DNA of 64,000 nt, from positions 930,001-994,000 of the forward strand of contig CAJNOJ010000006.1 in the NCBI GenBank assembly GCA_905250025.1. Reading direction: 5' to 3'. Below are positions 25,107 through 63,804 of the stretch, piece after piece. The position numbers were made by a program, and so were the translations under genes. Below the pieces are notes generated by a model. It was given only the letters and a program-made list of their open reading frames with translations, had not been told where the DNA came from and did not search any database. This DNA is from Adineta ricciae (Eukaryota > Rotifera > Eurotatoria > Adinetida > Adinetidae). Each line of letters starts with the position of its first letter. The stretch's first letter is position 1.

Positions 25107-27296
25107 CTATGTTCGACCGCTACTTGTATTGACGAACCGTAACGCCAAGTATGCACAGAAACGAAAACAGACAAACATGCCGAAAAGCACAAGAAAATTC
25201 AAACCAATATTAATCCCATAATCAAAATATTGGAGTGCTTCATTGCTAATGAATGTTCCGTTGGGATTATTTCGACATGAAATCACGTAGGAGCCATCGA
25301 CGCATTGATACACTTGTCCACCTTTGAATTGTAATTGTAAGCATGCGTTATAAGCATACTTGAAAAACGAGAACCATTTGCCCCAAACACCCAGCCAATG
25401 TGGAAGATTTCGAACGAAGAAGCCCCCGACTAACATCAGTGTGATCAGAAGAACTGTTGCAGCTGTGATAGCATGGTGTAAGTTTTTTAACGCTGCGCCC
25501 AAAAGTAGACCGAGTGATTCGGCTACCAGGATGGATAGAAGTTGAAAGACAAGAATGGCAAGGAAGATGCCAAAGTTATTGTTAATTCTCGCCATCCAGT
25601 AGGAAATGATTAGAAAGATTGTTGGTAAAACCAACTTCAAGGGAGCTTCAGCTAATGACTTGGCAACAAAATAAGCTGATAAACGAAATGCACCACTTGC
25701 ACGTTCCTTTTCGATAACACCACGTTCAAATGGAAAAGATAACAGACCCATCATCAACGTATGTAAAGGCCAAAATGTCATGAGAAAGAAAATAAACGAC
25801 GATCGATCAGGTATCGTGTCTTCTCTGAATTCCATCCGCAACCAACACAAACCACTTATTACAGCTAAAGCTATTGATTGTATTAAGTTAAGAGCAGTAA
25901 ACTGGGCTTTTCCTGTTAATCGGAAACTTCGTGAATATAAGATTAACATTTGTGGCAAAAATCCAATTGGCCATTTGCCTTCACGACCATCTGGAATCAA
26001 ATTCACGTTGTCCGGATTGGTCAGATCACTTTCTTTTCCCGATGGCTCAGCCATCAAATATCGACTAGATTCTGACAATTGACTTGGTATTTGACCACTA
26101 ATGATTCGATGTTGGAGATATGCTTCCTTCAATTCTTCACGAATTTTCATATCTTGATTAACGAGATCCATAACATAATCTGCCGGATTGTACTGACTTG
26201 GACAATTGTAGTTCATTGTTGAAAAGTATGCGAGAGCATTCGATGGTCGACCCTGTGAATAACAAATTAGTGAGCATGAATACAACACATTATCAGTTTA
26301 TACATACCATGAAGATGCCTTTGCCATCTGCGAGCAGAATGAGTTGATCAAATGATTGAAAGATTTGTGATGATGGTTGATGAATGGATGTGATGATTGT
26401 TTTTCCTTGCATAGCCAATTCGCGGAGTACATCCATGAGTGAGACAGCGGATGTACTGTCCAAACCGGATGTGGGTTCTATACAAGCGTGTACATACGTA
26501 CATATAGATGAATACAATGAAGAACATTTACTAACCATCAAGAAAGATAACACTAGGATTAGTCAGAAGTTCAGTTCCAATATTAACACGTTTTTTTTCT
26601 CCGCCAGATATTAACATAATAGGAGTATTGGCACACTTTCGAATACGAAGTTGATCGATAATGATTTCAACTTGTGCAAGTTTATCTTTTCGAGATAGAT
26701 GATTAGGCAATCGAAGAAGTGCAGTATAGGTAAGTTGCTGTTTGACAGTTAAATTTTCAAAGAACAGATCCTGTTGAAGAACATAAGCAAGTTTTCGCTT
26801 CATAGCGCGATCATATAGCTGATTATTGTACCAGACATTACCGGTGACACCGCTCAATGCTCGACCAGCAAGTGTATTCAGAAGTGTTGTTTTACCACAT
26901 CCTATGAAAGAACTAGATGTATATACATCATAGTATGCATGTATGACACTCACCTGATGGTCCCATAAGTGCGACGATTTGTCGGGGAAGAATTTGGCCA
27001 GAGAGTTTGTCGAGAAGAGTTCGTTGAATGAACCGTTCTTTCGATGATGGATCGATCATTTTAGCCGGAACATTGATCACTTTAGAAACGTTATGAAACG
27101 TAACTGTGATGCGCGGAGATTGTGCTGCCATGATTTGCTCACCTTCAATCGACATTTGAGTTTGTAATGTGTCACCATCACGCATTTCAATAGTATATAC
27201 TTTATGTTGACCATTAGGAGTATATGCCGGCGGTCTTTCATACGTTGGATCAATATACGATGGATTGATATACGCACTTTGATCTTCAGAGTCCAT
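25107..27296 (-). CDS. ABCG-type half ABC transporter (White/ABCG1/ABCG2 family)
   Basis: ATP-driven membrane exporter; family members work as dimers and usually move sterols, lipids, pigments or drugs. Four exons (27296-26954, 26901-26536, 26477-26308, 26252-25107) give 674 residues, a normal half-transporter length. The nucleotide-binding domain comes first, as in ABCG proteins. Walker A (GPSG|CGKTT) is split by an intron around residue 115. The signature is [12 protein letters not shown], and Walker B runs VIFLD|EPTSGLD across another intron, followed by the [10 protein letters not shown] switch region. The single large last exon holds about six membrane helices and a Cys-containing loop before the final helix, typical of ABCG. 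The N-terminus has PPAY (near residues 23-26), a possible WW-domain ligand. Substrate cannot be told from sequence. Confidence 0.93.
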
Positions 27297-43582: not shown

Positions 43583-44087
43583 TCTCTTGATATTAACAAT
43601 CTATGTGAATACAGTGATCCTTCTTATCCTATTCGCTGTTTCTCGCTCGTTCGAGTTCAATTCAGGTAAATCTGTCTCTTCCAATTTTTTTGTATAAAAT
43701 CGAACACTCTTGGTTTTTTGTGTTTTTTCTCACTCTCACTCTCTCTCTCTCTATTGCAATCAGATTATAATTGTTCATTTTGTTCTCTCTTTCTCACGCT
43801 ATCTCTGTCCTATGACTTATATATCTTTTGGTTTTTATCATATACGTAACAAACAGTTTCTTTTTTTTTCTTTTGTTGCTTTGCTTTATATATACATATG
43901 TATACACTATTTTTCTAACTGGTCTCTTCTGATATTTGACCAAAAAACCATCCTACGAGACAAAAATTGGAACATTTACGGTTGCTTATATATAAATATA
44001 AATATAAATATATTCGATTACGATAATTCATAATTTAATTTTAGATTCTTTTCTTCAGTTTTCTACTTTTTTTTGTCAGTAACAAAG
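43583..44087. other. Short intergenic spacer with AT-rich repeat
   Basis: Spacer between the tandem TAO kinase and NDFIP-like genes. It has CT runs near 43730-43755 and an AAATAT-type repeat near 43987-44014. No gene is seen. Confidence 0.5.
43987..44014. repeat. AAATAT-type simple repeat
   Basis: A few copies of a TATAAA/AAATAT unit just upstream of the NDFIP-like gene. Confidence 0.6.
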
Positions 44088-45041
44088 ATGAGTGATAATG
44101 CAAATCACGTAACAGTGACTGTCGAACAATCGACAGCAACTCCTGCTCCTGCACAGACCCATGAGAATGTTGAAGCATCTGCGACAGTGCAAGCAACACC
44201 ATTAGGTACGATATTGACGACAAATTGCATTCATATAACCTACCCCCTTTGTATTTATTTTACATTAGATGGACCACCACCTGCATATGAAGCTGCTCCA
44301 TCATCAAACGCTAGTGCTAATAATCCTGGTAATGTAGATGAGGCTGTAGGTGTGATTGAAGCTCCACCGCCATACTGTCTCGTCGACCCAAGTAAAATCC
44401 CCAATATGGACCATATCCCACATTATTCGCAAATAACACCTGTTGAAATTATTGATCTAAATATGAACAGTAGTGCTGGCAACGAGCAGGTAACAGTAAG
44501 ATACTCTGTTGATTTTCCATATAATTGTGTGTCTTTTTTTAGTCAAATCGTTATCATAATCAAGCAGCGATTGCAGCTTGGCTTTCATCGGGTTCGAACA
44601 TGGACATCGGTACAGATTGTACATTCCTTATGGCATTGTAAGTACCCTGTCCCTTCGATGTCCAGACTCGTTCAATTCTTCTTTGTAATACTTAGTATAA
44701 TTGCTTTCTTTTTCAACTGGATCGGTTTTCTTGCCGTTATTTGTCTTATTCCGACCATCGCTGCTCGTTTCGGCGCGATGTCAGGCTTTGGCTTGAGTGT
44801 CGCCAAATGGATAACCGTTGTTCGTTACCATGAATTGAATAATTCATCCTATCTTACACCAAATAACATGTCCACACCTTATCATCGAACCATCGTTCAT
44901 GATCCTGCACACAACTTCGTCTTTGCTATTGTTCTATTTGCTGGATTCTTCTTGTTCGTTCGGGGTTTAATATCTTACATTGCCGTTAAGAATCGTGCAA
45001 ATCAACATGGACAAACAGCAGATGTTTTCAATTGGTACTAG
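44088..45041 (+). CDS. NDFIP1/2-like Nedd4 adaptor membrane protein
   Basis: Golgi/endosomal membrane adaptor that recruits and activates Nedd4-family E3 ligases. Exons 44088-44205, 44269-44489, 44543-44637, 44696-45041 give 259 residues. The N-terminal half is cytosolic, Ala/Thr-rich, with two PY motifs: PPAY (43-46) and PPPY (72-75), the WW-domain ligands. The C-terminal half has three hydrophobic segments with FFNWIGF, ARFGAMSGFGLS and a final FFLFVRGLISY helix, closely matching the conserved NDFIP core. It ends FNWY. The unspliced transcript is also open from start to stop, because the three introns (63, 53 and 58 nt) sum to a multiple of three; that makes a misleading 300-plus-residue frame. 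An AATAAA lies near 45118. It sits beside the USP32-like gene, another ubiquitin factor, perhaps by chance. Confidence 0.93.
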   Translation: MSDNANHVTVTVEQSTATPAPAQTHENVEASATVQATPLGTILTTNCIHITYPLCIYFTLDGPPPAYEAAPSSNASANNPGNVDEAVGVIEAPPPYCLVDPSKIPNMDHIPHYSQITPVEIIDLNMNSSAGNEQVTVRYSVDFPYNCVSFFSQIVIIIKQRLQLGFHRVRTWTSVQIVHSLWHCKYPVPSMSRLVQFFFVILSIIAFFFNWIGFLAVICLIPTIAARFGAMSGFGLSVAKWITVVRYHELNNSSYLTPNNMSTPYHRTIVHDPAHNFVFAIVLFAGFFLFVRGLISYIAVKNRANQHGQTADVFNWY

Positions 45042-45807: not shown

Positions 45808-46638
45808 TCAGTCATCCAATGACATCGACGCTTGTCGAAGGTGCTCCCGTGCATGACGGTGTGATTCTGAGCATGAACAGCCAATCATCATTTCTCGGTT
45901 TAGCAACGTATCAGCTGTTGCTTGGTCTCCTGTTGCAACTAGAATAGCAAGTCGGATTAAATTTTTCGATAAAAACGAATGAAATTTGACACGTACTGGC
46001 GGTGTGAACAGCTGATTGTCCGAGCCAACCATTTTGGTGAATATCGGAGCCAGCTTTCAATAGATAATCAATGATTTCAGCATGTGTACCACGGACAGCT
46101 AGAAAAAAACATCAATCGAATTCCAATGGGGTAAATTTAAAATCGATAAATCTTACCAAGAATGAGTGGAATATCTCCATCATCATTTTTACAATTAACA
46201 CTAGCTCCGTATTTAACAAGCGTTTGAACTACATCGAGATGGCCATTTTGAGCGGCAGCGTGAAGAGCTGTATAGCCGAATTGACCTTTCTTTTGGATAT
46301 CAGCTCCTGCATCGATTAATGCTTTAACGATATCACGTCGACCAAGCATAGCAGCGTTCATCAGTGGTGTATAACCATAAGCATCAGGAGCATTAATATC
46401 TGCACCTAGAGAGGACAAAATAGTCAGAGTAAAATCGAATTTCATTCGAGTTCAGAATATTTCTTTACATACCTTCACGAAGCCAGCATTTAATTCCTTC
46501 CAAAGAACCGCATTCGGCTTCTTCTGGTAGAGAACGTTTAGTTTTCTGTGGATTGTTGAATAGATTCAAAACAAGATCAGTAGTTGTTTTGATCCATGAA
46601 ACTGGGTAGTAAATGTCGCTTATATCAATTGAAGGCAT
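45808..46638 (-). CDS. Small ankyrin-repeat protein
   Basis: Four exons (46638-46473, 46405-46157, 46098-45997, 45938-45808) join in frame to 215 residues. After an N-terminal stretch of about 45 residues come at least four ankyrin repeats. The clearest have GADINAPDAYGYTPLMNAA, GQFGYTALHAAAQNGHLDVV and GDIPLILAVRGTHAEII. The C-terminus is a short His/Arg/Ser-rich tail with a CSC pair. There is no membrane segment, SOCS box, death domain or catalytic motif, so it should be a cytosolic or nuclear binding protein. The partner is unknown, and the repeats are too generic to choose an orthologue. Confidence 0.85.
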
Positions 46639-49341
46639 GATAAAAATAATGTTAGACTGGATAATCTAAATCGAAGTTGAATATCGATAAAAGAGGTTTT
46701 GCACTCGTTAGTATCCTCTAAAGACTGTCCTTGTATTTATTTACGTTGTAAATCTCTGCTTTTCTCGCTCTCTCTCTCTCGACGTCTATAGTTCTTTTTC
46801 GTACGTTTTTACTCCCTATTTGCATACATAGAAGATAGTATTCGAGAAAGAATAGAAGTAACTATCACGCGCTCTACACGCAGTAAAATGTCCTCTCCAA
46901 TCTCGTTCGTTTTACCATCGTTACATACAGCGATGAGAACGAGAAGAAAGACGATTGGTGGTAAGAACTCAAGGATAGCATGTGATCGATGCTCGCGACT
47001 GCTAATGGCATGCGTTGGATGTGTGGACTATGGAATGGAGAACGTTATCCTAGATTTTAGCATGTCACAATGGAAAATCGGAACGAGAACTTTGTACAGT
47101 ACGATCGGTACTGAACTCAAATGATAATTCTTTCTGTCATCGACCAAAGTGCATTAGTTTAGAAAATCTATTCTGAACTGTGAACCTTATCCACTTCTAC
47201 ATGAGGATGTACAATGAAACAAAACGAGAGAAATGCAGAGATTACAAGGATGGAAGTACTAATTTGAACAAAGTTGCAATTTCACCTACCTGATTTTACT
47301 TATGAGAATATATGACAAAGATCGGTTTGATTGGGGTGTGGCTATATGCACAATAGTAAGACTGTAATATGATTGAGAAATCGAATTTGCGCTGGCTATT
47401 TATTGCCGAGAGAAAGAGAGAGAAATTTTGGAAGAATAAGGAGCAGGTCGTATGACTCTATCACGCGCACTCTGCATGGGTTTTCTTTGCGTCTGTTCTG
47501 TTTTGCATTGTGGTCGTGTTAACCAAGCCTCCAAATATCACGAGCTTTGTGCGTGATCAACACTTTTTTTGTTGTTGAAATAAAGCACGAGGATAACTGG
47601 CTCAATATATTCTGCGTTTTTTAAATGAATATAATAAAAGAAATGTAAAACAGAGACTGAAATATATATGACAGCATTAAGTGCAAAACGAGATACTAAA
47701 AAGTAGGTGTGTGACATCAATACGTATAAATCTGTTTTAAATGTAAAACATTCTTTTCAATAAGACGACTCAGTTCGTTATGACTATTGACAACAATTCA
47801 TTTTACTGAAGTTCTCGATGTTATTCGCAGTCATCGCGATGAAAGATTTGTCACGCTTCTTAGGATGTGATCAAAGGGCATCGATCATAATGTAAACAGA
47901 ATGACAAAAAAGTCGATCTTTGGAATTGACATGCAACATGCTCTCTCTCTCTCATGTACACCTGTTTTGATGCATTTTACTAATAGTACTAAACAAATTC
48001 AATGGCAAAGAAAAGTGTGTGTTTCTATTAGCAACAACGTAGGAGGTAATCATCTAAAAAAAGGTATACACTCGACGATAAACAAATCTCGCATTGAAAT
48101 AGTCAGATTGTGGGTGTTCAAATTGTTGTTATTATTACGTTTGGGTATTTTCGTGTTACTCGTGTTAAATATGAGGGCATCAACTGTCAACACGTACTTT
48201 TCAATGATCACGACGCAAAACATGCGTTTTTAATCAGAGAAGGAGAACATGGAAAACATATGCGGCAATGTATTATATTCAAATAGGAAAAAGTCCGTAA
48301 CTTTTGTTTGGTACTTTTAGGGTCAAATTTTTTATTACGTAGCCGTTATTCGTTCTAAACGGACGATTATACAGCGGGCCTTGGAGATCTAATCATTGTT
48401 TAAATATTCACGCATAACTAACGAATTTACATCGACGCATATTCGAGAGAGGAGAATATACGTTTCTTTTTCTAATCATGTTTTGAATAGAAAATATTTT
48501 TTGTGTATTAGACAACGATGTCAAGGTTGTATGTACTGCTACGAAGGATAATAGTAACTGATTTTCGTTATTGACGTCAATCGATACAGGTCTTTGTTTA
48601 TAGACACAATCATAAGGTAAAGTTCATTTTATACGATGACATGACCAAAGAAGTTGGACAGCGATGAAGAAATATGTAGAAATTTGCATCGCTGTTTGGT
48701 ATTATTACAATTTAGTCATAAACAACGAAAAGAATGACAGATAACATAACTTCAATCGGATAGCACATGATGTGTGATTCAGTAAAAGTATTCAGTACTT
48801 CCCAGTAGTATCTGATATTTAAGTGAGATTGCTGTGAAATCCAATTTTCTATTCGGAAAGTTAATAAGAGGCGTGTCATCTTGCTTGGCAAGAATATGGC
48901 CCTTTTTTTTCAACTAAAGACTCTCAAACAATAAATGATATCCTATCAGGTCATATGCAGCATATGGTACGTTTCACACGCGCGTCTTTGTCTACAGAGC
49001 AAAGTCAATCGATCAATCATCTGGTATTAGAACGAACTTGATAGTCTATTAAAGAACTAAAAGCGCGAGCACATGACTTATCAAACAGATGACGCTAGAT
49101 TACATTATTGGATAGTGTGAATGAGAAATTTCGATAGTCGGAATAATTTTCGGGCATGTTCTCGAATGGTTTCTCCCTAATAAACTTTGAAAATAATCAT
49201 TCCTGTCTTTTAATTCAAGGATGAATTTAAACCAATAAATCTCTCATCTGTATGAGTCATTGTATCTGTTCTGATAAGAATTTTGTTCTCACGAACGAAT
49301 TTTGAGAAAACTCTCTGATTCTGATCGAGATCGAGATCGAG
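46639..49341. other. Gene-poor region upstream of VPS35L
   Basis: About 2.7 kb between the starts of the ankyrin gene (minus) and VPS35L (plus). Reading frames at 46888-47124 and 47901-48233 begin with ATG or a near start but show no conserved motif, splicing logic or protein-like composition. CT/GA runs and AT-rich stretches occur. An unidentified short gene is possible but not supported. Confidence 0.45.
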
Positions 49342-52300
49342 ATGTCTTCTATTTCAAGTAAATGGACACCGAAACAACGTGATTATGTTTCCGAACATAA
49401 ACAATTCAATAAACCAACAGCCGTAACAATAAATCATCCACTCGGTATAATTGTTGTACGTTCTCGAAATTTTAGCATAGGAATGAACTTTCATCAACGA
49501 CTTCCATTATAGGCCAGCAAACCACAAACAGTTACATCGACATCGTCACCTGTTATTGATCCACTTTCAGCGAAAATCAGTCAAGTAGATATCGACCCAT
49601 TGTCACGCGCATTATCTGCCGCGATTAGTACAAATAAGAAAGAATTATCTGATGAAATAGCAGCGACAGCACCTGATACGTTCGAGCCATGGTCGAGTAA
49701 GAAAAGTTTGATATTAAATCAATACTCTACAACCAAGAAAATCAGTATGACAACTGCAATGAATAATAGTAATGATGAATCGACTATTGATAATTCTAAA
49801 GGTAGGAAGGCGTTCATTGTGTTGGAAATATTATCCGTTTATTTATTTAGCTTCGGATATGACCACAACATCGGAAAGAATAAAAAATCGCTTAGAGCAA
49901 TTAGATGCATTTGAAGTAAGAATGTACCTGAATTGTCGAAATCTATGTATCTCATGTTCCTATGTTGTTTCAGGGTGGACAACAAACTCAAAGTTTAACT
50001 CAACAGGAGTACATCAATCGAATCAATGAAATGAGCCGAGATATGAGTCAAGCATGGAAAAGTGATCAACGTGTTAAAACATTAAAAATCGCCATTCAAG
50101 TAAGAACAGTCGTTCGTCTAATTCGGATTCTGCTAACTGTTACTTTGCTTGCAGTGTTGTAAATTATTAGCTGATATGAATGTCATGGAATTCTATCCGA
50201 GTAAATTCTGTTTGATTACAGATGTATTGGACACATTTGGTAGGAAGATAGAAAGAAGATATCCAATGATTTCTATTCCCTTGTCTAGGTAAAATGGTCT
50301 ACACACGTTTGTTAGAAAAATGTGCATCACCGAATGGCAAAATTCGTAAGATAAGATTAAATATTCAATAGAAAATAATAGTGCTTACTTTTCTTAGCGG
50401 ATCGTATTGTGATTGATCTTGTTCCAGAAACAACACGCGAAACTGCTCGAAATTGGTTTTATAAAATCGCTATTATTCGTGAATTACTACCACGTATTCT
50501 TGTTGAAGCAGCGATTCTTAAATGTTACAACTTCTTATCTGCAACGTAATGGTCATTTTCATTTCTCCGACAGTACTAGATTTGCTTTGATTCTTCTAGA
50601 CATTATCAATCTACATTGGTACAATTAGTCAAAATGTGCCGAGGTATTGGTGATCCATTAGTTGCTGCCTATGCTCGCTGCTATATTTGTCGAGTAACTA
50701 TGATTTGAACGCATTGAATCGATTAGAATTTTCTGTTAATATATCATAGGTTTCTATTGATATCGATTTCACACATCGTGAACCGATCGAAGTCGCTTTT
50801 ACAGATTTATGTCAGTCATTTCATCAAATAACTACGCCAACTGTTAAAAATCTATATGCATCGCAAAAATTAACAACTAGCATATATTTATCCCTATATT
50901 CACCAGCATTAGATTGGATAGTTCAATGTTTATTACATAAACTAGATGACAAGAAAACCGAACAAATGATAAATAAAACGAAAGCAGGCTTAGACATGCC
51001 AAGGTAAGCAGGAGAGTTTCACTTTACAAAGATGTCGCATTCATATGTTCTTGTTTGATTGCTTTAGCGGCGGTGTCGTATTGAATGCACTTTTGAACAC
51101 ACTTCCGCCAAGTCATGTTCGTGCGAAAGTACAAACATATATTGGAATGATCAATGACTGTGACGAACAATATTTTCCCAAAGTAAACTAATGCAATTTT
51201 TACCAAGAGAGTACCAATGAAGATTATTTTAGAGTATATTATATCGTTCATTGGGTTTATCTCTTCTCCTATCACCGCCAGAATCAACACCCTCAGATTT
51301 ACAGATACTGAGCAGTGTTTGGAAAGTGGTGACGAAGTTCAAAGATCCATCGGTGAGAAGAACTTTCTCTAACTCAAGCGTAGAAAAACTCGTCTCATTC
51401 CTTTTAGAGTTACATGGCATGCGCTGAAGTATGGACGGAATTAACTTCCAAAGAATATTCTGTAAAATCTTCGATTGAACTCATTCGTCCATTCTCGTCA
51501 TTTTTTCATTTGAATAGATTCGAGAAGTGAACACTATGATAGGTGATATTATCAAGCATTTAACACCCGATCGTGCTTTCGAAGAATATTATGGGAGATT
51601 GCACGCAATTATGATCAAACTGTTAACAAATGTCGAAGATTTTGCAGCTCTATTCTCAATGGTACTGAATGAAAAAGAACTCGTTTGATTATACTGTTCT
51701 TGTTACTACTAGGATAAAATCTTGCCATTTCTCGATTTGTTTCAACGAGAAAACGTTCGAGTAGACATCTTCAAATCGATCTTACATGCATTTGTCAGCA
51801 GGTTTGAATGTTAAATGATGTTCTACTTCAACCATATCACTTATCTATTTGTCTAGAAGCTCACAGGAAAAAACTAATGATCCAGTGTTAATAGCTGCGT
51901 TGATTCATTGTGCTAAATGTGTGCACGACACACTTGGGTAAGTCTGGTTTGTTTACGTATACAGGAATGTAATCGTTCATTATACAGAGCTTTGACAAAT
52001 GATGATGAGCTACGAGAAGTTAGTGGACTCTTATCTGCTATCATACGAAAGGTTGATTACGGCAAAGATGTTGAGCAAGAGTTGAAGTTTTGTGTGGAAG
52101 CTCGTGGATTATTTGGTTATATCGATTCAGTTACAATTACACTCATTCAAGTAAGAAAAACAGAAAAAGGAAAGACACTTTCGTTCTTAACAATTATCTC
52201 ACGTTGATAGAAAGTCAATAAACTGGCTATATCCACACACCGTAATGTCAATGGCGTTCATTCACCTGCTACATCATCATTCATCCGGGCTTGTATGGCT

Positions 52301-53403
52301 TTTTGTTATATTACAATTCCATCGTTAGAACATCCGTTACATAAACTTCAATTATACACACTTTGTGCACAAACAGCATATTTGAATCAAAGCCCTTCAC
52401 AGGGTAGGATGAGGGCAAATCGAAATCGTTTGTAACTTCTTCTCATAATGTATTTCAGGAGATGGCTTTCTCAAAACCGCAATTACTTTGCTATCTGAAT
52501 TTCCAAAACAAATTGAAATCGAAGGAAAGCCAATATCAAGTGATCGATATCTCTATGAATCGATTACTAATATCATGGGCACACTTGTTGTTGTACCAGT
52601 ATGCGACTTTATATGTATAACTTGCAGAGAAAATTTTATTCTTTCTTTCAAAAGGATAATCCCGATGGCGGTGTTCTATATCTTGCTAATGGATTAAGTA
52701 ATGTCATTAGTCAAATGAAATGTTTCGATGAAGCAAGTGAAACACGTGCGCTGCTTCTGATGAATATGCTCTGTTTTCTTACTACACAAGTTCAATCAAC
52801 ATTACCGTATCATATTCCAAAAGGTATGTTCTCATGTTGACCGAAGAATGTCTTCAGTCTTTGTTGAAATTAGTCGAATCGAATGATACTTTGTATGGCA
52901 ATGATGAAAATTTTATTAATGAAATGCATCAACGGTTGAGTCACATTTGCGAACAGATCATTCAGATTCTGAAAGATGTGGGCAATACGGTAAATATGAA
53001 AGAATGCATGTTATAGACGCGAACTCTTCTCTGAATCTTTAGAATCCAAAGCGTCAGTCTTCATTGGCTCTCGAGTTTTTCAATCGTTTCATTGCGCATA
53101 CCGACTTGAGCCAGCCGAAATGCTTAAAATTTGCCGTAAATCTTTGGAATTTAATTCAGAAAAATGCCAGTCCTGACACACAAAAGACTGCCGTATGTCT
53201 CACTAAAGTGCTCTTTTGAAAATATCCTGTTTTTTTCGTTGTAGAAACGAATGTTGATTGCCATTGAGATTAGTTCGAATTCTGATCAGTCCTTTAAACG
53301 TTTACTCGAACTTCTATCCGGCACGATGAATGAAAGTAGTCGAGTATCATCTCGCTCGTCGTCAACATCCAATTCGATACAATCATTCAATACTGGTGAT
53401 TGA
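49342..53403 (+). CDS. VPS35L: VPS35L, Retriever complex subunit (C16orf62 homologue)
   Basis: Core subunit of Retriever (VPS35L-VPS26C-VPS29), which works with the CCC complex to recycle integrins and other cargo from endosomes. Twenty-two exons give 974 residues, close to the human length: 49342-49455, 49513-49801, 49851-49915, 49974-50099, 50155-50239, 50289-50345, 50398-50545, 50600-50693, 50750-51003, 51068-51182, 51233-51352, 51408-51461, 51518-51661, 51713-51801, 51857-51937, 51988-52150, 52211-52403, 52459-52598, 52655-52823, 52874-52989, 53043-53192, 53245-53403. Diagnostic stretches are DFEPW-type [81 protein letters not shown] and [11 protein letters not shown], in the human order. 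The protein is an all-helical solenoid without a signal or membrane segment. AATAAA is at 53517. Confidence 0.96.
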
Positions 53404-53836
53404 AATCTTTTCCAAAATTAGCAATAATGATTCTCTCCATACCTGTGATTAGTCGATTTCGTCCTTTTTATTTCTGTGGAAACCAATTATGATTGATTTA
53501 TGTATTTTCTTATAAAATAAAGATTTTTTTTTAGATCATTTTTAATACCATACGAAGAGTTGTTTGTGTTTTTCTTGAAAGTCCAGTTAAGTCAAACTGT
53601 TTACTTTGTTTTTATTGTGAAAGAAAAGTCCTTAAACGACACTTATTCTAAATATGAATCACTCGAGAGAGAAAACCATTCTATGCTGACATAAAACTAT
53701 TCCTTATATTTCTTGATGACGCGAAAATGAATGAGGCCAGAAAATGAGAGGGAAAGAATAGATAATTTTGACGTTATTATTGTCTGTCTACATTTATCAT
53801 AGCACCAACAAACACCTTATTTATTTGAAACTTGCT
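53404..53836. other. Convergent spacer VPS35L / spondin
   Basis: Only about 430 bp separate two convergent stop codons, so 3' UTRs may nearly touch or overlap. AATAAA for VPS35L is at 53517-53522. TTTATT (AATAAA on minus) lies at about 53819, very close to the spondin stop. Confidence 0.6.
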
Positions 53837-56800
53837 TTAACATGGGGTGGTTGTTTGACAATAGCGCGACTCTTTCAATGGTCCACACCGTTTGCCCCCA
53901 TTACGTGATCGACGTACAGGTACACGTGTACGCGTTTGCATAGCATCTTGACCACAACCGGTGCATGACGACCAAACGCTCCATTGACTAACAACACAAT
54001 CGACCGGTGCTAAAATGAATTACCATCGAACAAATATATCTGTTAAGGGGAAGAATACATACGACAACGAATAGTATGACATGGTTGTGTCTCTTCCAGT
54101 TGTATCGATCGGCAACGATGATCGTCAACGTGATGTTGGATTAATAGTGTTCGGCTGCGACGTCGAATACCATTCGGCCCACATGTTACTGAACACTCAC
54201 TCCATTCACTCCAAGGACTTGTCGGACATGATCGATCAGTACCTGTAGAAGAAAAGTATTGAAATGTTATTTGGTTTTCGATAATCTATACCTTCGGCAA
54301 GGAAACTTTTACAGGCTGTCTCGCATTCCATTTTATCAGCGAAATTGTTCTTGTTATTACCACGGGCAGGACATGAGGTGAACGGTACGCATAACATACT
54401 CGTCTTATTGTAATGATAACGTTGTAAACCACGGCATCGATTATCTTCAGCTGGTTCGGACATACATCGATCTAGACAGTCGATTGTAGAAATTTAATAG
54501 AATATTTTCTTGCACTTATCCAGGTTTACCTTTATTCTCATTTTTGTTACAATGCATTGAATCTGCACCTTGACATTGACGTTTTTCGACCAAATGAATG
54601 TCTTGGCATTGAGGATCATGATGTGAGTTATCATTGATAAACCATCGTCGTCGTTCTGTAACTCCTTGGCCACATGATACAGAGCATGGCGAGAATGATG
54701 ACCAGTCAGTCACAGCACATCTAAAACAAGACCTTTTAGATTGAAAAGTAAAGCGAAAGCAATTCATTTACTGCGCAACTTGTTGATTATCATCATCACA
54801 ATCATCACCTGATCTTTCGTAACACATTTCACTTTCACTTAGCCGTTCATTACATCCGTTATGATCCCGATTTTTGTACATTCTAAAAATATAAAATCCA
54901 TTCGGAAATGTTGTACAAGACAAATGTAGAAAGCCAACCTTGTTCGTGTTCGTAGACCATTTCCACATTTGACATTACAAGCACTCCATTCTGACCAAGG
55001 CGATGTCATACAACGAGGATCAGCCGATTCTTCTTCTGCAAACATTGAGAGTATTTCATAGAACAGAGCAGTGAATGGAAAAAAAAATGATACGCACCAA
55101 GTAATTCAACGTTCGATTTAGCGACTTCTTTTTCGCTCTCGACTTCGCTTGTACGACTCAAATCGACAAAATCTGGACCAAAGTCAATAACTGACGGTGT
55201 TTCCGTATGCTGTGGACGACCACTTGGACATGATACACCTTGTGTCATCACCCGTTTAATACTCAATTTAGCAAATGGTGGTGGCTGTTGACCTAAGAAT
55301 TCAAATATAATAAAGAAAAATCAGTATAAACCTATTGTTTTGTTTAACGATCGTACCAAAGAATGGAGATCGATTATCGGTAATATTGCTTGAAAGAATA
55401 GGCATAATTGGCTTACGATGATGTTCTGGGCGTTTTGGTCCCTAACGAAATATGAAATGTATATTCGGTTGCAAAAAATCAAAAGTTTCATTTACATTGT
55501 AGCGAACGCCCATGTCAGTTCCTGCGTCAAATGGATGAAGTAATTCTTCGTAGTTATCTAACCAGGTGCAATTTGGAAGACATAAGTCTAAGCCGGATAC
55601 ACCTAGTTAAAATAATGAAAATGCCGAGTAGATTTTTTATTTTGTGCACAAGAAAAACGACTCAATTTACCAGCAACCCAATCGGGTGACGGCCCAAGCA
55701 TTGTTACAAACGATAAGAAATGATGATTTCTCGATGATGTAACGGCACCTGTAGTAGCTTTTGTAACATTAACTGTCCATAGGCCAGGTACGATCATTAT
55801 ATTTCGAATGACACCGAACTTGGTCTGAGAAAAAAAAACCAGGAACAGTTTTGGTTTCGCTCTCGACTAATCAGTTTAGTAGAATAGAAAATCTTACGTG
55901 ATTTTTTATTTCTTTCTGCATTGTTCCAATGGCACCCCATTCGGCAACTTGTTTCAAACCATCGCTAGCGATCTCACCATAGTTCCACACTAGATTACAA
56001 AAGAAATGTAGAAACTACGACATTTTTTATTGGAATTAATTACGTGAATATTCTTGACTATGAACAGCTCCAATCAAATCAGACCAATGGAGAAGATGTT
56101 CTACAAAACGGTAGATATGTATTACTTTCGATAGAGATAGTATTTACCAGGTGGCCAATCTTTTGGATGCGTTTGTTTTGACCACAAGCCTTGAAATGTT
56201 ATTTGAAATTTCGCTTCGTCACATGCACAGCAAGGATGACGAGGTCGAAAAGTAGCCTTTGGCATGTCTATAGAAATTAACTAGATGTTCATAGAGAAAT
56301 TTGCATGTTGTCTTTACCTGTCATCATTTGTTTGTGTTTATGTTTCATAGAATTATCATTGCAGTCAATTGTACATGATTGACGTTCTTCCAAAACTTCC
56401 GTGCAATGACCATGCATAGCAGCACGCTTGTCTGCATACATTCTTGTTCGAGTTTGCACACCCGGTCGATGACATGTAGCGTTTGAACATGCTGACCATT
56501 CACTCCACATTGAAACCAGACATCGTGGATCGTGAACCACTGTGAAACAAGAAAGATTCTATAGCAGTTCTTCTACGGTATCAATTAGACATACTTGATT
56601 TATGATCTTGAATGAGTTCATCACACATTGCTTCGCATTCTTCGTGTGTCATGAAATTATTGTCATTGCCTATGCAAAACAAGACTTCCAGTAGTTAAAT
56701 TAAAATACATTGTATCTCTACCTCGACATCCACCATATGAAAATTTAGTACATTTACGCGTTGTAACATCAAAATAGAATCGATCGATAAATTTAGTACA

Positions 56801-59800
56801 TGGGCCAGGTTCAAGTGGATGCATGCATTTCTCTAAAATAACACAAATATTCTGATCATTCGTAGAATACATTCTTTTTAATAACGTACGTTTCCTTTCA
56901 GCAGATTCCATACTTTTAATCATTGTTCGTCGTGTGTCTGACAGGCGATACATTTGTGCTGGATCGCAAGGTGTATGACAATCACGAAATTCTTCTAATG
57001 GTTCCGAACAAAAGCCCATTGCTAAAAATTTGACTTTGTATGCACGAAATCGAACTTGCGTGCCAGGTCCACAAACAGACGAGCAAGCGCTCCATTCGGA
57101 CCAAGGTAAAGTCATACAGCGTGTGTCTTTGCCATCCTCTAAAGACATAAATATATTATTCGATATATTTGTGTTAATTAGAATCCGAATTCAAACCTGT
57201 GCGTCCGCGTAATAGAATGTCGCATGTATCCTCACATACATCTCGTGTAAGGAAATTATTGTCATTAGCACCACAACCGCTGTAGTCAAATTCTAGACAT
57301 TTACTCATGTCCAAATTGAAATAGAAACGACGTTCATATTGTGCACATGAGCCGATTTCGAGTGATTGCATGCAAATACGTTTTTTCTCGATCATATCTG
57401 TTAAACGACCCTGCTCACAGAGAGGCTTCATTCCAATACAGGACTCTTTTTCCATCAGTTGATATTCCGATCGGCATTGAGGCTTGTCGCCACCTTTGAG
57501 CATGGTACGTGATCGAGTGCGCATACCTTCGCCACAAGTAACCGAACAATGAGACCATGCTGACCAGTCACTTACCATACACCTAAAGTCAAGAGTAATT
57601 TACTTGTAAAGCATGTTTTAACAGAAGATTCCAAAGCTTTACATCGAACTATCCAATGAATGCGGATGGTTATTTGTCATTATTGATGAGCATGATGTCG
57701 AATGACATGAAGCCATATCGTAAGTTCGTTCATTGCAGTGATGACGGAAAGCTTTGTCCGGCATAAGATACGAACGTCGTCGTGTTTTGATGCCATGACC
57801 ACAAGTCACCGAACAGGATGACCAAGGCGACCACTCGGTTAAACGACATTCAGGCGTTGAGGCTTCTTCTACATCGAAGAGTAAGAAAAATTGTAGTTTG
57901 CCAGAAATCTAGTTACCGTAAGCGTAAACTAATTTTCCTGAATGATCGTATTTTTGTTTGACTCGTTCATTTCGATGATGCGCCTGTGAGAGATCAACAT
58001 CAGGCGATGATTCTTCGCGGTGATGGTGATTTGTTCGTTGAAAATGTTGTCTACCATTCTGATTATTTGGACACTGAGTTCCACGAACAAGCGTACGTTG
58101 AAGTGTAACGCGGGCAACAGGCATTATTGGTTTACCTACTCGCACAGAAGTCAGTGTAATTAAAAAGCACAGTGATCTCAGAACTAACTCATTGGATCAT
58201 GGAAAGATGATGTTGGAGAGATGGTACCAGTGATTGCGTGAATTTTCTCCAATGGTACTGTTGGCAATCGACTAGACTGAAATCAAAGTTCATACATAGG
58301 TATTTGCATGAACGCAGATCGAATCTATTGAGTTTACTGTATATGTTGTTCCACTATCAATTCCAGCATCCAATGGATAAAGATCCTCCGAATATTGTTC
58401 AACCCATGTACAGTTCGACAAACATAAATCCACTGCATTGACTCCTACAAACAAACAATAGAAAATATTTTCAATCTAATTCATTCATGATTACACGAGA
58501 CTAAAAGAGAGCATTACGAAATAATGAAGAAAGCATATATACCTGTGAACCAGTCAGGACTGGGCGAGATTTTGCTTACAAAACTCAATTTAGGATGGCG
58601 AGGAGAAACAGTAAATACATTCATTGCTGATGACATTTCATTAGATGACATTTTCAAAGGTCGAGCAAGTATTAAACTACGAATAACACCATTAAATGAC
58701 TATAACAAACAAAAAGCACTAGATCACATATGTATACAACATCAATGAGAAATACAAGAAGACAACAGGAATACAATAGGAATTATGTTTTACATTGTGA
58801 GAACAATCTACCTATGAAAGAATCAGAGGATTTTATGTTTTCATCTATGTATCTGCTGACAAGAGATAAACGATGAAAATCTCGATTCGCTCGAATCGCT
58901 TGGTACCACCATGAGCCAGACATGAGAAAACGCAAACCAACTGAATCTCTTTCACGTTGCTATTTAAATTTTTGTAAAGAAAATCAATGATTGATAAAAG
59001 GTATCTTCGTCATACTAACTTCATTTGCTAAATCTTGTTCAAGTGTGTGAGTATCACCAGTGAGAACGAGCTGACTTAAACCACGATTGGCATATGCACC
59101 AATTTCAAATAATGAATAATTGGAATTATGAACAGCACCGACAGTTGTTGAAAAGTGAGCTTTTATACAATAGAATTCCACGTTTCATAAGATCAAGCGA
59201 AGTTTTCTCTTACCTGCTGTTGCTGGCCAGTCTTTTTTGTGCGTCTGTGGTGACCAAAGTCCTTTAAATGTTAATTGATATTTGGCTTCACCGCAAGCAC
59301 AACATTGTTGCATCATTTTTTTCATATGCATTTCTAAAGAAGAAAACAAAGCAAGTCTTGTTATACTAACATACAACATTGCTTATTCCTTGGCATACTA
59401 ACGATCTTCACACATGGTATAGGTTAACGCATTATCATCTTTGAACCAAACCGTATCCGATCGTACTACAGTTGCTCTAAACACAGTAGGTTTGTACTGT
59501 TTCACCTACTCTAGTCCTTAGAAAAACAATATCTACTTGAATGAAATACATCCCTGCGGATGACGTGGTGCAATCCAATCGACAGAAATCGAATTTTTCG
59601 ATTTATCTGGATTGGCATCTGTAACACCGCCAGGACAATTACGTTGACTGATGATCGCTTCTTGCGTTGACTCGTCATTTGTATGCGTCGATGGTAGTAA
59701 CTCAAACTGTCCGACTGGACGATAAGCTTGATCATCAGACCATGTTGATGGTACAGCAATGAGCATAAATTCTTTGAACGATGATTGATACGTTTGACTT

Positions 59801-60044
59801 TTGAAACCACTCAATGAAACTAGAAAAATAATCGTTTGATATCGTATATCTTTAGAAATACTCTTTTACCTTTGTATGTTCGACCCGGAACATATGTTTT
59901 GAAACTACCTTCGACTGTTATACGAAAGCCATTGTCCCCTGCCGTCTGAGGTACTAGATATCGTGATGAACGATAGCAAGTCGGCGGTTGTGCAAGAACA
60001 ACATTGTAGAAAAGTAGTAAGTGAAGAACATACACAACTAACAT
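53837..60044 (-). CDS. F-spondin-like secreted matrix protein with duplicated spondin_N/TSR/Kunitz block
   Basis: Secreted adhesion protein; F-spondins guide axons and cell attachment. Twenty-eight exons close in frame to 1457 residues: 60044-59870, 59819-59537, 59476-59403, 59333-59214, 59159-59020, 58699-58543, 58444-58338, 58276-58189, 58135-57917, 57868-57643, 57582-57197, 57138-56890, 56832-56722, 56669-56595, 56539-56318, 56267-56148, 56100-56044, 55989-55898, 55824-55671, 55602-55496, 55441-55357, 55292-55098, 55035-54939, 54882-54772, 54720-54530, 54471-54292, 54242-54063, 54009-53837. Order: signal peptide (1-18), reeler (to about 177), spondin_N 1 (178-454), TSR1, TSR2+Kunitz, TSR3+Kunitz, TSR4 (to 877), spondin_N 2 (878-1147), TSR5, TSR6+Kunitz-like, TSR7, TSR8. 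TSRs show WSxWSxC and CG; Kunitz domains have six Cys. Ordinary F-spondins have one spondin_N domain. Confidence 0.9.
58812..58959 (-). other. Exon-like segment inside spondin intron 5 (possible poison exon)
   Basis: A 148-nt open segment bounded by a good acceptor (TTAAATAG) and donor (GTAGAT). It lies in a 320-nt intron, unusually long for this gene. Its phase does not fit the next exon: inclusion would hit a TAA at once. Skipping it joins exon 5 to 58699-58543 in the correct frame and matches the second spondin_N copy. So it is either plain intron or an alternative exon that truncates the protein within the first spondin_N domain. Confidence 0.3.
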
Positions 60045-61478
60045 TGTCTTGTTAATGTAATGTATGTTGAGAAAATGTACCTGTGCTTGTTCGAACTACA
60101 AGAGAGAGAGAGAGAGACAAAAAAAGAAAGGAAATATGAATATTTCAGGACATAACCAACAATTGTGATAGAATACAAGGAAAATAATAACAACAACAAC
60201 TAAGACGAAGAATTGTATGTTTGTATATGGAAAGCACCAGAAAGAAAGAAGAAAGAGACAGAGAAAGAGAGAAGTAAGTAATAAATCAATAATAAGCGAA
60301 AGACAGTATATTCTATTGAAGAAATACGACGATGATGATGATGATGATGAAAGGCTAATTTCTCTTTTTTCTCCTCGCACTTTTGTTTTCTCTGATATGC
60401 CAACTGACAATCAAACGAAATCAAATAAAATCTTCAGACAGTTTCAATAATGTCCAATTACAGATATAATACAAAAATACTATTCAGATTTAATAATCCA
60501 AAGCAGTTTTACAATACTCAAGAGAATAGAAAACGCACGTTCATAATCGAAAACAATGTTGAAATTCAGAATTCTATAAGATGTTCTCTTTTCTTCTGCT
60601 TCTTCTTTCTTGCTAAGTCAGTTCATAAATAATTTAGGTTTTCATCGATTGAGAAGTGATTTTTTCTCATCAACAAACTTGCTGTGATCTCGTCCTTGAA
60701 AGTAAGTAGTTTCACTGTTCTACAGAGACGACTATAATCGAAAAATGTCTATCTTGATAATAAGAGAACTCTATAATTATAAATAGTACTTCGAGGGCAC
60801 ATAGATAATACTAAACATGCTGTCTTTTCGTAACAAACAGATGGCATTGCCTAAATGACATTCTTTTGATATGCACAATTTATTAAGAAATCCTAAAGAG
60901 GCCAACTCGATATCGACGATTCCGCATCGTTATCAGGCGAAAAAAACATTCAGCTTACAATCAAGCGATTATGTTTCCTGTGAGTCTCTTTTATTGGCAG
61001 CTAAAAAAAAGAAAATCTCTTTTCCGTCTGTTCTCTTATTCAATGGGCTCTTATTTACTTTTGAACTTGCGATTGAATGCAAAATGTCCTTACTCAAAAA
61101 GCAATCATACTAACGGCAGCGAGTCTATCAAAACAGCTGCCATGATTCAAAAAATAAATGGAAAGTCACCGCAACATCGACATTATTCCATGAAGAATTT
61201 ACTTGCAAACCAATAGATAATATACCTAACAGATAGTATATTGTTTTTCAACGTATTGAATACTTGACTCAATAAACATGTACACACGCAAGTTCTACTA
61301 ATGAACGTCATAAACAAACACAAGAAAAAATTGAAAAATGATTAAACAGTACCAAAATTGTTTAGTGTCTAGAACGACAATACACACGCGCATGCACACA
61401 TATACACACACAAATGAGATAATAAAAAAACAGTGATAGATCTATTATTGACTATGATATATGAATTCATGTCGTGTA
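60045..61478. other. Intergenic region
   Basis: It holds the 5' UTR and promoter of the spondin gene and the 3' UTR of the AT-hook gene. Simple repeats include GA near 60099 and GAT near 60330-60350. A 60871-61113 plus-strand frame has no supporting feature. Confidence 0.5.
60329..60351. repeat. GAT trinucleotide repeat
   Basis: About seven GAT units in the spondin upstream region. The Asp-rich or His-rich frames across it are repeat artefacts. Confidence 0.7.
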
Positions 61479-62280
61479 TTAAGCGTTCGTAGTCGTATTT
61501 GCAGCTACTGGTGTTGATTCTGCGGATAATTTTTTTGGTCGGCCTCGCTTCTTAGTTATGCTATCGGATTTAGCTGGTGGTTTTGCTTTTAGTGCTGATT
61601 TTTTGGCAGAAGCTGATCCAGATGGGCGACCGCGGCCCCTGCCCGATGAAGTTTCTGTTGATACTGGAGATTTCGCCGGTTTTACAACCTTTTTAGGCGA
61701 GAATCCCGATGGTCGTCCACGTTTTTTCTTTTCTAGTGCAGATGCACTATCTGTTTCTTTTAGAACTTCTACCGGATTTGCTCGAACCTAAAAGACGCCT
61801 TTATCAGATCGATAGTTTCTGAAAACGGTAAGTTTTACTTGTGGTTTTCCGATGCTATTGACTTCTTCAGTTGGCGCGACCACGCCCTTCGATGGTCGAC
61901 CGCGTTTCTTTTTATTTGCGTCACCATTTACTGACGGTTGTTCTTTTTTTTCTGATGTTGTCGGTACAGCTTTTTTGGCTGATGACGTGTCTCCTGTTGT
62001 TTTGCTTGGCCGACCACGGCCACGTTTAACTCCACTGGCAGTCTTTTCCACCTTCATTGTACCTGCCGACTTCGGTGGACGACCTCGGCCTCTCTTTGCA
62101 TTGACATTACCTGATGATCGATTGTTTTTACCTTGATCTAGATGGCAAGTATTCCTCTATGAGTGGCAAATAAGCAAACAAAACTCGTTTACCATGAACA
62201 CTGTTGGCTGCTGCGTCTGTATCCATAGGCAAAACTCCGGCACTGTCATTCAAAGTTGAAGCATTGTTTTGTTGTTCCAT
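61479..62280 (-). CDS. HMGA-like protein with six AT-hooks
   Basis: Probable chromatin architectural protein binding the minor groove of AT-rich DNA. Three exons (62280-62193, 62137-61839, 61787-61479) give 231 residues. Six AT-hook cores are visible in order: RGRGRPPK, RGRGRPSK, KRGRPSKG, KRGRPSGF, RGRGRPSG and KRGRPKK. They are spaced by Lys/Ser/Ala/Thr/Pro-rich linkers. The first 30 residues are acidic-polar without a hook. There is no HMG box, SET, PHD or other domain, and no long acidic tail. Vertebrate HMGA proteins have three hooks in about 100 residues, so this is roughly a doubled version. AT-hooks are also found in many remodellers, so HMGA orthology is not established, but the DNA-binding role is well supported. 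Confidence 0.85.
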
Positions 62281-63462
62281 TTAAAGTTCGATTTTGTGTA
62301 AATAAATCAAAAGCGAATCAATAGCGAAAAGAAAAAATAAGAACGTCTCAATGAGATGAGCTCGATTGACCGATGTTCGTCTAATGATAGAGAAAGAACA
62401 AATGAACAATGATCGATTGATCATCTTTCTCTATTTCTCATTGGCCAACGAGATAAGATCCTGTATAAAAACCTGTCTTTCGTTTTCTTTTGAGTACTAC
62501 TGAGATATTCAATGGAAGAGTACGTTCGGCTGATGACTTCGCTCGACAGGTTATTAGCACTTCGATTTCATGAAACATGACACTCAAGATAATAGTATGA
62601 TACGCATATCTTTCGTCTGTGCCAAGTGACATCTGTTATCTCTTTCGAGTAGATTATGATTGGTTTGATCACAAAAAGAGTAATCTTTAATTATAAAGGA
62701 AGTCACTTCCTTTTCTTATATGCTTTTTTTCCTAATAAACAAAAAAGAAAACGCACGCACACGGGAAAAAGATACTGTACACAAAAAGAAACCAATGCTC
62801 GGAAAAGAAACAAACAGATCGGGTATAAAAGACCGAAAAAACGAACCCGTTCTAGATACTTGTTGCTAGATATATATGTATATATATACAAGCAGAAAAT
62901 GGTCACATCGAAGTTTTTTTTTACATATATACACTGACAAGTTAATGTTGTTCGTTTTTCATCTTTATCATCAAATGTACATAAAGAGAAAAAACGAATT
63001 CATATGTAAGAAACAGAGTGCAAGAGAGAGCGAGAGCGAGAGAGAGATAGACAAAAAGAATCACAGATGAAACAATGACGTGTACTGTAATAAAGAGGAA
63101 GAAGATATACAAATATATGTATGTACATGGGGAAAAGACATGAAACTGTTCTTCAATGTTATGCACAAAAAGAAAGAGGAAAAAAACTCGAAAGAATAAA
63201 CCAAACAAACAAACGAACAAACAACAGATCAGTTGATTGTGAAGCAATGAAACGAAACGAAAGAGACAAATGTAACAGGAAACGAACTAATGGTATGCTA
63301 AACCGGGAAAATCAACTCTCTCACACTCACTTAATTTACAACACACAGAAATAAAAGTAATAGAGATACCTGAAATGGTCTGGTTGTTACAAACACGCAC
63401 GCACACACATATATTATATATATATATATATATAGAGAAAATTTTTATATACAAATTTCTTT
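62281..63462. other. Intergenic region with low-complexity sequence
   Basis: Between the start of the AT-hook gene and the 3' end of the last ankyrin gene. Strongly A-rich and GA/CA-rich, ending in a TA dinucleotide run. No supported gene. Confidence 0.5.
63409..63434. repeat. TA dinucleotide microsatellite
   Basis: A nearly perfect TA run of about 12 units following a CA-rich stretch, just beyond the stop codon of the last ankyrin gene. Confidence 0.75.
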
Positions 63463-63804
63463 TTACATCATACCAATCTGATTGAACACAGATTCATCAT
63501 CGCCATATAAGTCAATAAGAACTCCTAATACTTGAGGATGTTCATGAGCAATTGCCCATTCAACAAGTGATTTGTCACCTGTTTTGCGACGTTCTTCGTA
63601 CCGACGCCAATCGGCACCGTGCTTCAGTAACGTAACAACAACAGAACCTTGATTGCATTCAATAGCTCGTTCTAATGGAGTCTTATCTTCGAAGCCAGGA
63701 TAATCAACGGGAAAACCACGTGCTAATAAATATTCAATGATATCAAGACGACCATAGCCTATGGCAACATTTAATGCTGATTCACGAGCCACCGAGATGC
63801 AGTA
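63463..63804 (-). CDS. Ankyrin-repeat protein, C-terminal exon (partial)
   Basis: A 113-residue terminal exon with an acceptor at 63805-63807, read in phase 0. It has at least two ankyrin repeats (ALNVAIGYGRLDIIEYLLARG; TPLERAIECNQGSVVVTLLKHGAD), a more divergent third, and ends in GMM. It has no ATG of its own, so coding exons lie upstream. A candidate 5' exon (about 63981-63876, starting MCRNSS and containing LNFGLIMAKVFAAS) has a good donor but ends in phase 1, which does not fit. Either that exon is wrong or an exon is missing. The real 5' end may lie beyond the window. Confidence 0.65.
   Translation of the reverse strand, partial: YCISVARESALNVAIGYGRLDIIEYLLARGFPVDYPGFEDKTPLERAIECNQGSVVVTLLKHGADWRRYEERRKTGDKSLVEWAIAHEHPQVLGVLIDLYGDDESVFNQIGMM

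Follow-up and report, generated by a model that had tools for sequence, protein, structure and literature searches.

A predicted F-spondin gene of the bdelloid rotifer Adineta ricciae with two successive FS–TSR–Kunitz blocks in one reading frame

The 64,000-nucleotide window (the whole stretch of DNA analysed here, whose base 1 is position 930,001 of contig C6 of the Adineta ricciae assembly) contains an F-spondin gene on its minus strand, with a coding span that runs from 60044 to a stop codon at 53837–53839. The coding sequence (53837–60044) comprises 28 exons in a single frame and encodes 1,457 residues including the leader, and the same structure is present on another contig, C65. This second copy, apparently the other allele, is 94.5% identical in DNA over an alignment of 8,510 columns that includes the flanks (about 8.5 kb), has its GT-AG borders at corresponding positions, and encodes 1,474 residues in the 27-exon version of the model given below. 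The splice search was trained on 25 long ORFs of the window; the start codon at 60044 was supplied and the exon list was withheld. It returned 28 exons and terminated at the stop at 53837, a total that matches the earlier, sequence-only reading partly by coincidence, because the search used a 99-nt cassette and left a 57-nt intron unused. Several borders of its exons 7, 8, 13, 20, and 26 were reset using domain homology and the second allele. The resulting curated model has 27 exons and 1,476 residues (predicted mass 167.5 kDa), which become 28 exons and 1,457 residues (about 165 kDa, the 19 optional residues being absent) once an optional GT-AG stretch of 57 nt is spliced out. The claim of the sequence-only reading that 28 exons join in frame was borne out by this search together with the curated borders in two alleles.

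The optional stretch (56889–56833, minus strand) is in phase 1, has GT-AG ends in both alleles, contains no stop, and is a multiple of three in length; the frame is intact whether it is spliced or not. If it were coding, 4 of its 7 changed codons would give amino acid changes between the alleles. It is probably an intron, because 8 of its 57 sites differ between the alleles, to be compared with 136 of 1,766 in all remaining introns pooled. With this intron removed, the exon lengths first quoted for the two blocks are those that we obtain: 120/120 nt for exons 4 and 16 (both starting in phase 1), 157/154 for exons 6 and 19, 107/107 for exons 7 and 20, and 88/85 for exons 8 and 21, with exon 5 (140 nt) opposite exons 17 and 18 (57+92 nt). 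A candidate cassette exon of 99 nt (58861–58959) lies in frame within intron 5, an unusually long intron (320 nt) that is more conserved than most, with 11 of 320 sites differing between alleles. The cassette itself differs at 3 of 99 sites (2 synonymous, 1 nonsynonymous), and its alignment with FS sequences gave z scores of 3.1 for the block-2 exon, 2.0 for Spondin-2, 0.1 for the block-1 exon, and -0.6 for Spondin-1. It could add 33 residues to FS domain 1, or it could be nothing. A motif scan placed a possible polyadenylation signal (AATAAA, 53820–53825, minus strand) just 3' of the stop and further AATAAA motifs at 56031, 55910, 55641, 54536, and 53616. About 50 nt 5' of the ATG, both alleles have a CT-rich tract on the minus strand (60096–60130) ending in TTGTAG, which is a possible acceptor for a 5' UTR intron or a spliced leader.

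The encoded protein has the domain content that had been read from the sequence, a reeler and two spondin_N blocks with eight TSRs and three Kunitz modules: Pfam recovers one Reeler, two Spond_N (FS), 4+4 TSP_1, and 2+1 Kunitz domains, a series that is not due to chance. It opens with a hydrophobic, signal-peptide-like leader, MLVVYVLHLLLFYNVVLA, read by eye (59991–60044), and a Reeler domain in exons 1–3 (59443–59945; PF02014, E 4e-18) that matches Spondin-1 reeler structures at E 5e-16 to 7e-16 (human Spondin-1 2zou, E 5e-16). Block 1 follows, with FS domain 1 in exons 4–9 (58071–59310; PF06468, E 1e-56; Spondin-1 structure 3q13, E 6e-53), TSR 1 (57690–57851), TSR 2 (57417–57581), Kunitz 1 (57219–57380), TSR 3 (56963–57121), Kunitz 2 (56620–56830), and TSR 4 (56361–56525). 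Block 2 consists of FS domain 2 in exons 16–22 (55228–56238; PF06468, E 5e-60; 3q13, E 7e-52), TSR 5 (54798–55015), TSR 6 (54549–54773), a diverged Kunitz 3 (54308–54530; Pfam 39 bits, E 8.5e-10), TSR 7 (54064–54231), and a C-terminal TSR 8 (53840–54001), all these features being on the minus strand. The Spondin-like TSP1 model PF19028 also marks four stretches in each block. The best solved relatives of Kunitz 3 are Boophilin and Kunitz-type protease inhibitor 1; we considered it as an active trypsin-type inhibitor, with an Arg after the second Cys, and dropped this on finding its loop shorter by one residue in alignments with the solved relatives.

Both FS domains are closer to Spondin-1 than to Spondin-2, at 183 against 131 bits for FS 1 and 180 against 112 bits for FS 2 (structures 3q13 and 3d34); FS 2 also matches NF038123, an NCBI model for prokaryote spondin domains (E 1e-24), as the wider domain would lead one to expect. 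In human F-spondin, the FS domain has the calcium ligands D325, D354, and D358 and six disulphide cysteines, according to the accessible text of its structural description (PMC3117680). Counterparts of all nine residues are present in both rotifer domains: the cysteines at 188, 189, 191, 324, 328, and 403 in FS 1 and at 909, 910, 912, 1045, 1049, and 1123 in FS 2 (numbering of the 27-exon protein), and the calcium motifs as PSPDW in both blocks, with DAGID in block 1, which retains both Asp, and DAGTD in block 2. The same text calls the N-glycan site N214, at the end of beta-1, highly conserved in F-spondins (PMC3117680). In our alignment, its sequon is absent from both domains, which have GLWS where human Spondin-1 has GNWS and Spondin-2 GKWS; a motif scan finds other sequons elsewhere in the rotifer protein. 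The N-terminal reeler, the six-Cys FS domains, the calcium ligands, and the C-terminal TSR array (eight TSP_1) are those of an F-spondin, and the departures are two FS domains instead of one per protein and the missing N214 glycan site, which we did not take as a defining trait. On account of its second FS domain, we treat the protein as a variant within the family and not as an orthodox member. Two other spondins were rejected as identities. Mindin (SPON2) has only cysteines C1 and C4, unlike the six in each rotifer domain, and scores below Spondin-1, and its integrin-binding LEV triplet is absent at that place from the alignment of either block. SCO-spondin was excluded because a Pfam search with a cutoff of E 1, run on three segments that make up the whole 27-exon protein, gave neither VWD nor LDL-receptor class A domains. 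The same absence rejects identity with the rotifer SCO-spondin R-SSPO/1 (Rotimer), which is extracellular and spondin-named and is described, in the accessible text, as carrying both domain types (PMC12154537).

Described F-spondins have one FS head, as far as their accessible descriptions go. Vertebrate SPON1 shares with the rotifer protein the reeler, an FS domain with CCxC and C...C cysteines, the PSPDW/DAGxD calcium ligands, and a TSR tail; it differs in having one FS domain and six TSRs, in its N214 glycan, and in that Kunitz domains are not mentioned in the available text (PMC3117680), against two FS domains, eight TSRs, three Kunitz domains, and no N214 sequon here. Insect F-spondins of Bombyx, Plutella, and Pteromalus are described with one Reeler, one Spond_N, four TSRs, and one Kunitz domain (PMC3278429, PMC5309989, PMC5691223), a second Pteromalus protein having one extra TSR (PMC5691223). 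In these sources, the layout of BmSPI55, PxSPI35/41, and PpSPI53 is that of the rotifer reeler plus one block, with the block present once and a single Kunitz domain. The rotifer gene reads as this described insect layout with everything beyond the reeler present twice and an extra Kunitz domain in block 1, and the insect layout gives a plausible starting layout for the duplication. Caenorhabditis elegans SPON-1 is reported, in the text available, as an F-spondin with TSP1 and Kunitz domains that acts in cell migration (PMC3651406). The sponge skeletal protein c37591 of Vaceletia is described with two spondin domains, like the rotifer gene, and differs from it by its description in lacking TSRs (PMC4633127).

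The sequence-only reading had held that ordinary F-spondins have a single spondin_N domain, and the accessible descriptions of the Bombyx, Plutella, Pteromalus, and human proteins, each with one, agree with this. We found no report of a double-FS/TSR/Kunitz layout in the accessible open-access literature, and on that literature the architecture may be unreported. It is quite possible, if a little short of probable, that rotifers or other spiralians commonly have this layout and that the papers searched simply do not describe it. The divergence of the two blocks would imply an old duplication, which relatives would then probably share; the single FS domain in the available descriptions of the three insect proteins and the human one argues against a common layout. 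A pattern scan for relatives gave 77 matches in genome contigs and 36 in viral contigs, none of them confirmed, both being poor sources for animal genes. A layout shared among relatives would be compatible with the explanation that we favour, in which the body of an F-spondin gene was duplicated in the genome.

The two FS domains are identical at 88 of 228 aligned positions (39%), and their identity to human Spondin-1 is of the same order (91 of 223 residues for block 1 and 93 of 222 for block 2, or 41–42%). Because neither is closer to the other than to human F-spondin, the duplication would not be recent. Their exon structures retain more: for 5 of the 12 block-1 introns, block 2 has a counterpart of identical phase no more than one aligned column away (27-exon model). 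When introns were placed at random 20,000 times, such matches averaged 0.15 and never exceeded 4 if the phases were random too; if the observed phases were kept, they averaged 0.21 and never exceeded 3. Three additional same-phase pairs lie 2–6 columns apart, in gapped places, and the introns that open both blocks are in phase 1. These shared positions and phases support the descent of the blocks, at the genomic level, from one ancestor; they do not give its date.

The phylogenetic signal is much weaker. We compared constrained trees of four FS sequences (202 columns) under LG+G4, WAG+G4, and JTT+G4. All three topologies fall within the 95% set (AU p from 0.109 to 0.599 across the three models), the one that pairs the blocks being best by only 0.14–0.28 log units; the tree printed by IQ-TREE under LG+G4 pairs block 2 with human Spondin-1. 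The parsimony-informative sites number five, of which one pairs the blocks, one joins block 1 to Spondin-1, and three join block 2 to Spondin-1. The TSR tree is poorly supported and colinear only in part (T2–T6 with 52% and T3–T4 with 81% ultrafast bootstrap). Of the three Kunitz modules, Kunitz 2 is the nearest to both of the others, and Kunitz 3 resembles its positional partner, Kunitz 1, less closely. Hence, the earlier proposal of a tandem duplication fused in frame stands for the genomic copying of exons, given the five shared introns and the phase-1 bounds; the four-sequence tree and the informative sites do not establish the copies as mutual closest relatives.

These results leave some room for an origin by fusion, in which two spondin-family genes of long-separate ancestry were joined, as opposed to a copy that arose inside the gene during rotifer evolution. 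The 39% identity of the FS domains, no closer than to human Spondin-1, would fit such an origin, as would the trees that join either block with human Spondin-1, which are not rejected (AU p 0.11–0.51), and the one, one, and three informative sites, the three favouring block 2 with Spondin-1. We nevertheless consider a fusion unlikely: the intron positions and phases common to both blocks speak against it, as do the lack of the N214 sequon and the GLWS in both, although these likenesses could also be ancestral or convergent. Under an internal duplication, a block would have been copied between two phase-1 introns, with local changes following within block 1. The copied body would stay in frame because both bounding introns are in phase 1.

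The two blocks are joined by intron 15 (56268–56317, minus strand), a phase-1 intron of 50 nt with GT-AG ends in both alleles and 5 of its 50 sites differing between them. Only these 50 nt separate the blocks, which therefore leaves no room for a promoter or a leader. Exon 15 has a 6-nt difference between alleles that keeps the frame and no stop at its end in either allele, and no leader precedes FS domain 2. Across the 112 codons of the join exons, the alleles differ by 12 synonymous and 4 nonsynonymous changes (dN/dS 0.075). The earlier reading of one gene with two spondin blocks is thus upheld by a frame that is open across the join in two alleles, with purifying selection on both sides; a promoter and signal peptide before 56267 had been named as the mark of two adjacent genes, and that place holds a drifting intron and no second leader. 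Overall, a single gene encoding both blocks is well supported at the sequence level. Retention of intron 15 brings an in-frame stop after nine codons and would yield an ordinary single-block F-spondin; because of this stop, a short isoform is conceivable.

In a rival arrangement, the blocks would belong to two neighbouring genes, or to an operon whose transcript is resolved by spliced-leader trans-splicing; an ordinary F-spondin would end after TSR 4, and a second transcript would start at exon 16. This arrangement can draw on the stop and single-block protein given by intron 15 retention, on an in-frame ATG at the start of exon 16, and on the presence of spliced-leader genes in the genome, which means that the acceptor could be used in trans. 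We scanned the genome with a bdelloid spliced-leader pattern and found 41 places, each with one mismatch at the first base, whereas a reversed control gave 0; at the one locus read, the leader lies directly 5' of a GTAAAT donor. This arrangement is nonetheless very improbable and was rejected. The blocks are just 50 nt apart across an intron that drifts between alleles, the frame is open in both, exon 15 lacks a terminal stop in both with a frame-preserving 6-nt difference, and a product starting at exon 16 would have no leader, even though such FS domains contain three disulphide bonds, according to the accessible text of PMC3117680. Many of the spliced-leader matches form divergent pairs about 150 bp apart, and there are local clusters; the loci are on C6 (235175–251415), C8, C43, C77, C79, C99, C146, and C2. 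Together with the homoeologous segment on C1 given below, these matches point to a bdelloid rotifer as the likely source of the genome.

An assembly artefact, with a stretch collapsed or duplicated, has practically no probability, with nothing found in its favour, and was rejected, since the gene is also on a second contig with identical structure at 94.5% identity and 140 of the 228 aligned FS residues differ between the blocks.

Over 1,474 codons of the 27-exon model, the alleles differ by 150 synonymous and 42 nonsynonymous changes, a dN/dS of 0.069. By region, this ratio is 0.036 in the reeler, 0.064 in block 1, and 0.083 in block 2 (same model). Purifying selection acts on both blocks and on the join exons. 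Neither FS head looks like a relic, because both keep the calcium site and are under similar constraint, and their divergence would allow different partners.

We searched the whole assembly (130.5 Mb, 1,033 contigs) for further members. Of 14 candidates scored for Spond_N, 11 matched, and every match falls within these two gene copies (6 on C6, 5 on C65); no third copy was found genome-wide among the best candidates, which were scored exon by exon. For Reeler, 8 of 15 candidates matched, two in F-spondin and six outside it. A homoeologous segment (C1:994000–1003400) corresponds to window positions 45811–63804, with a NEDD4/Bsd2 gene and two ankyrin genes in the same order. Two neighbour proteins match C1 at 55–62% identity, and a third, which adjoins the F-spondin gene, matches only C6 and C65. 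The ankyrin genes stand about 5.1 kb apart on C1 and about 16.8 kb apart in the window, so that the C1 segment is about 11.7 kb shorter there, and a search of 28 kb of C1 for F-spondin gave no match (best E 0.58). On this search, the older homoeologous copy of F-spondin is absent from contig C1, whether lost or never present.

Taken together, the locus is likely to be a bdelloid F-spondin gene whose FS–TSR–Kunitz body was duplicated in the genome and in frame, giving one secreted matrix protein with two FS heads. Module duplication is common in matrix proteins, and the phase-1 symmetry of the bounding introns suggests how such a protein can double its body without a break of frame. Judging by the leader and domain content, the product would be a protein of about 165 kDa that is secreted to the extracellular matrix, in which a single reeler precedes two FS heads and a TSR/Kunitz arm follows each head. 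F-spondin is an ancient protein of adhesion and guidance, and its secreted family helps cells and nerve fibres to adhere and steer. It binds cell surfaces and matrix, APP through the reeler and FS domains, and ApoER2 through the TSRs, in the accessible parts of PMC3117680 and PMC3387172. The two heads may therefore make binding bivalent: tethered on one chain, they would bind membrane or matrix at two points, and a function that elsewhere needs two F-spondin molecules would be built into one chain. The Kunitz modules may perhaps limit proteolytic release.

More tentatively, and with some doubt on our part, bdelloids might have fully replaced the single-headed F-spondin with the double-headed form, whose 39%-identical heads, under similar purifying selection, could serve two different targets on one matrix strand and whose intron 15, spliced or retained, could switch between double- and single-headed isoforms. 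This stronger reading draws on the facts that this is the only Spond_N gene found, that both alleles carry it, and that the homoeologous segment has no copy. A double-FS gene as the sole copy found in an animal would offer a natural test of the role of the FS domain, with one or two sites and the same or a different ligand. The double F-spondin looks like a genuine variation on a well-known animal protein, not a new type of system, and leaves the wider picture unchanged.

The six Reeler matches outside this gene lie on C20, C69, C152, C61, and C183, two of them 14 kb apart on C183, and are perhaps other reeler proteins. Elsewhere in the window are exons of a TRP-type ion channel (12713–14627), an ABC transporter with an ABC2 membrane domain (25107–27055), and a gene of the NEDD4/Bsd2 family (44034–45038).
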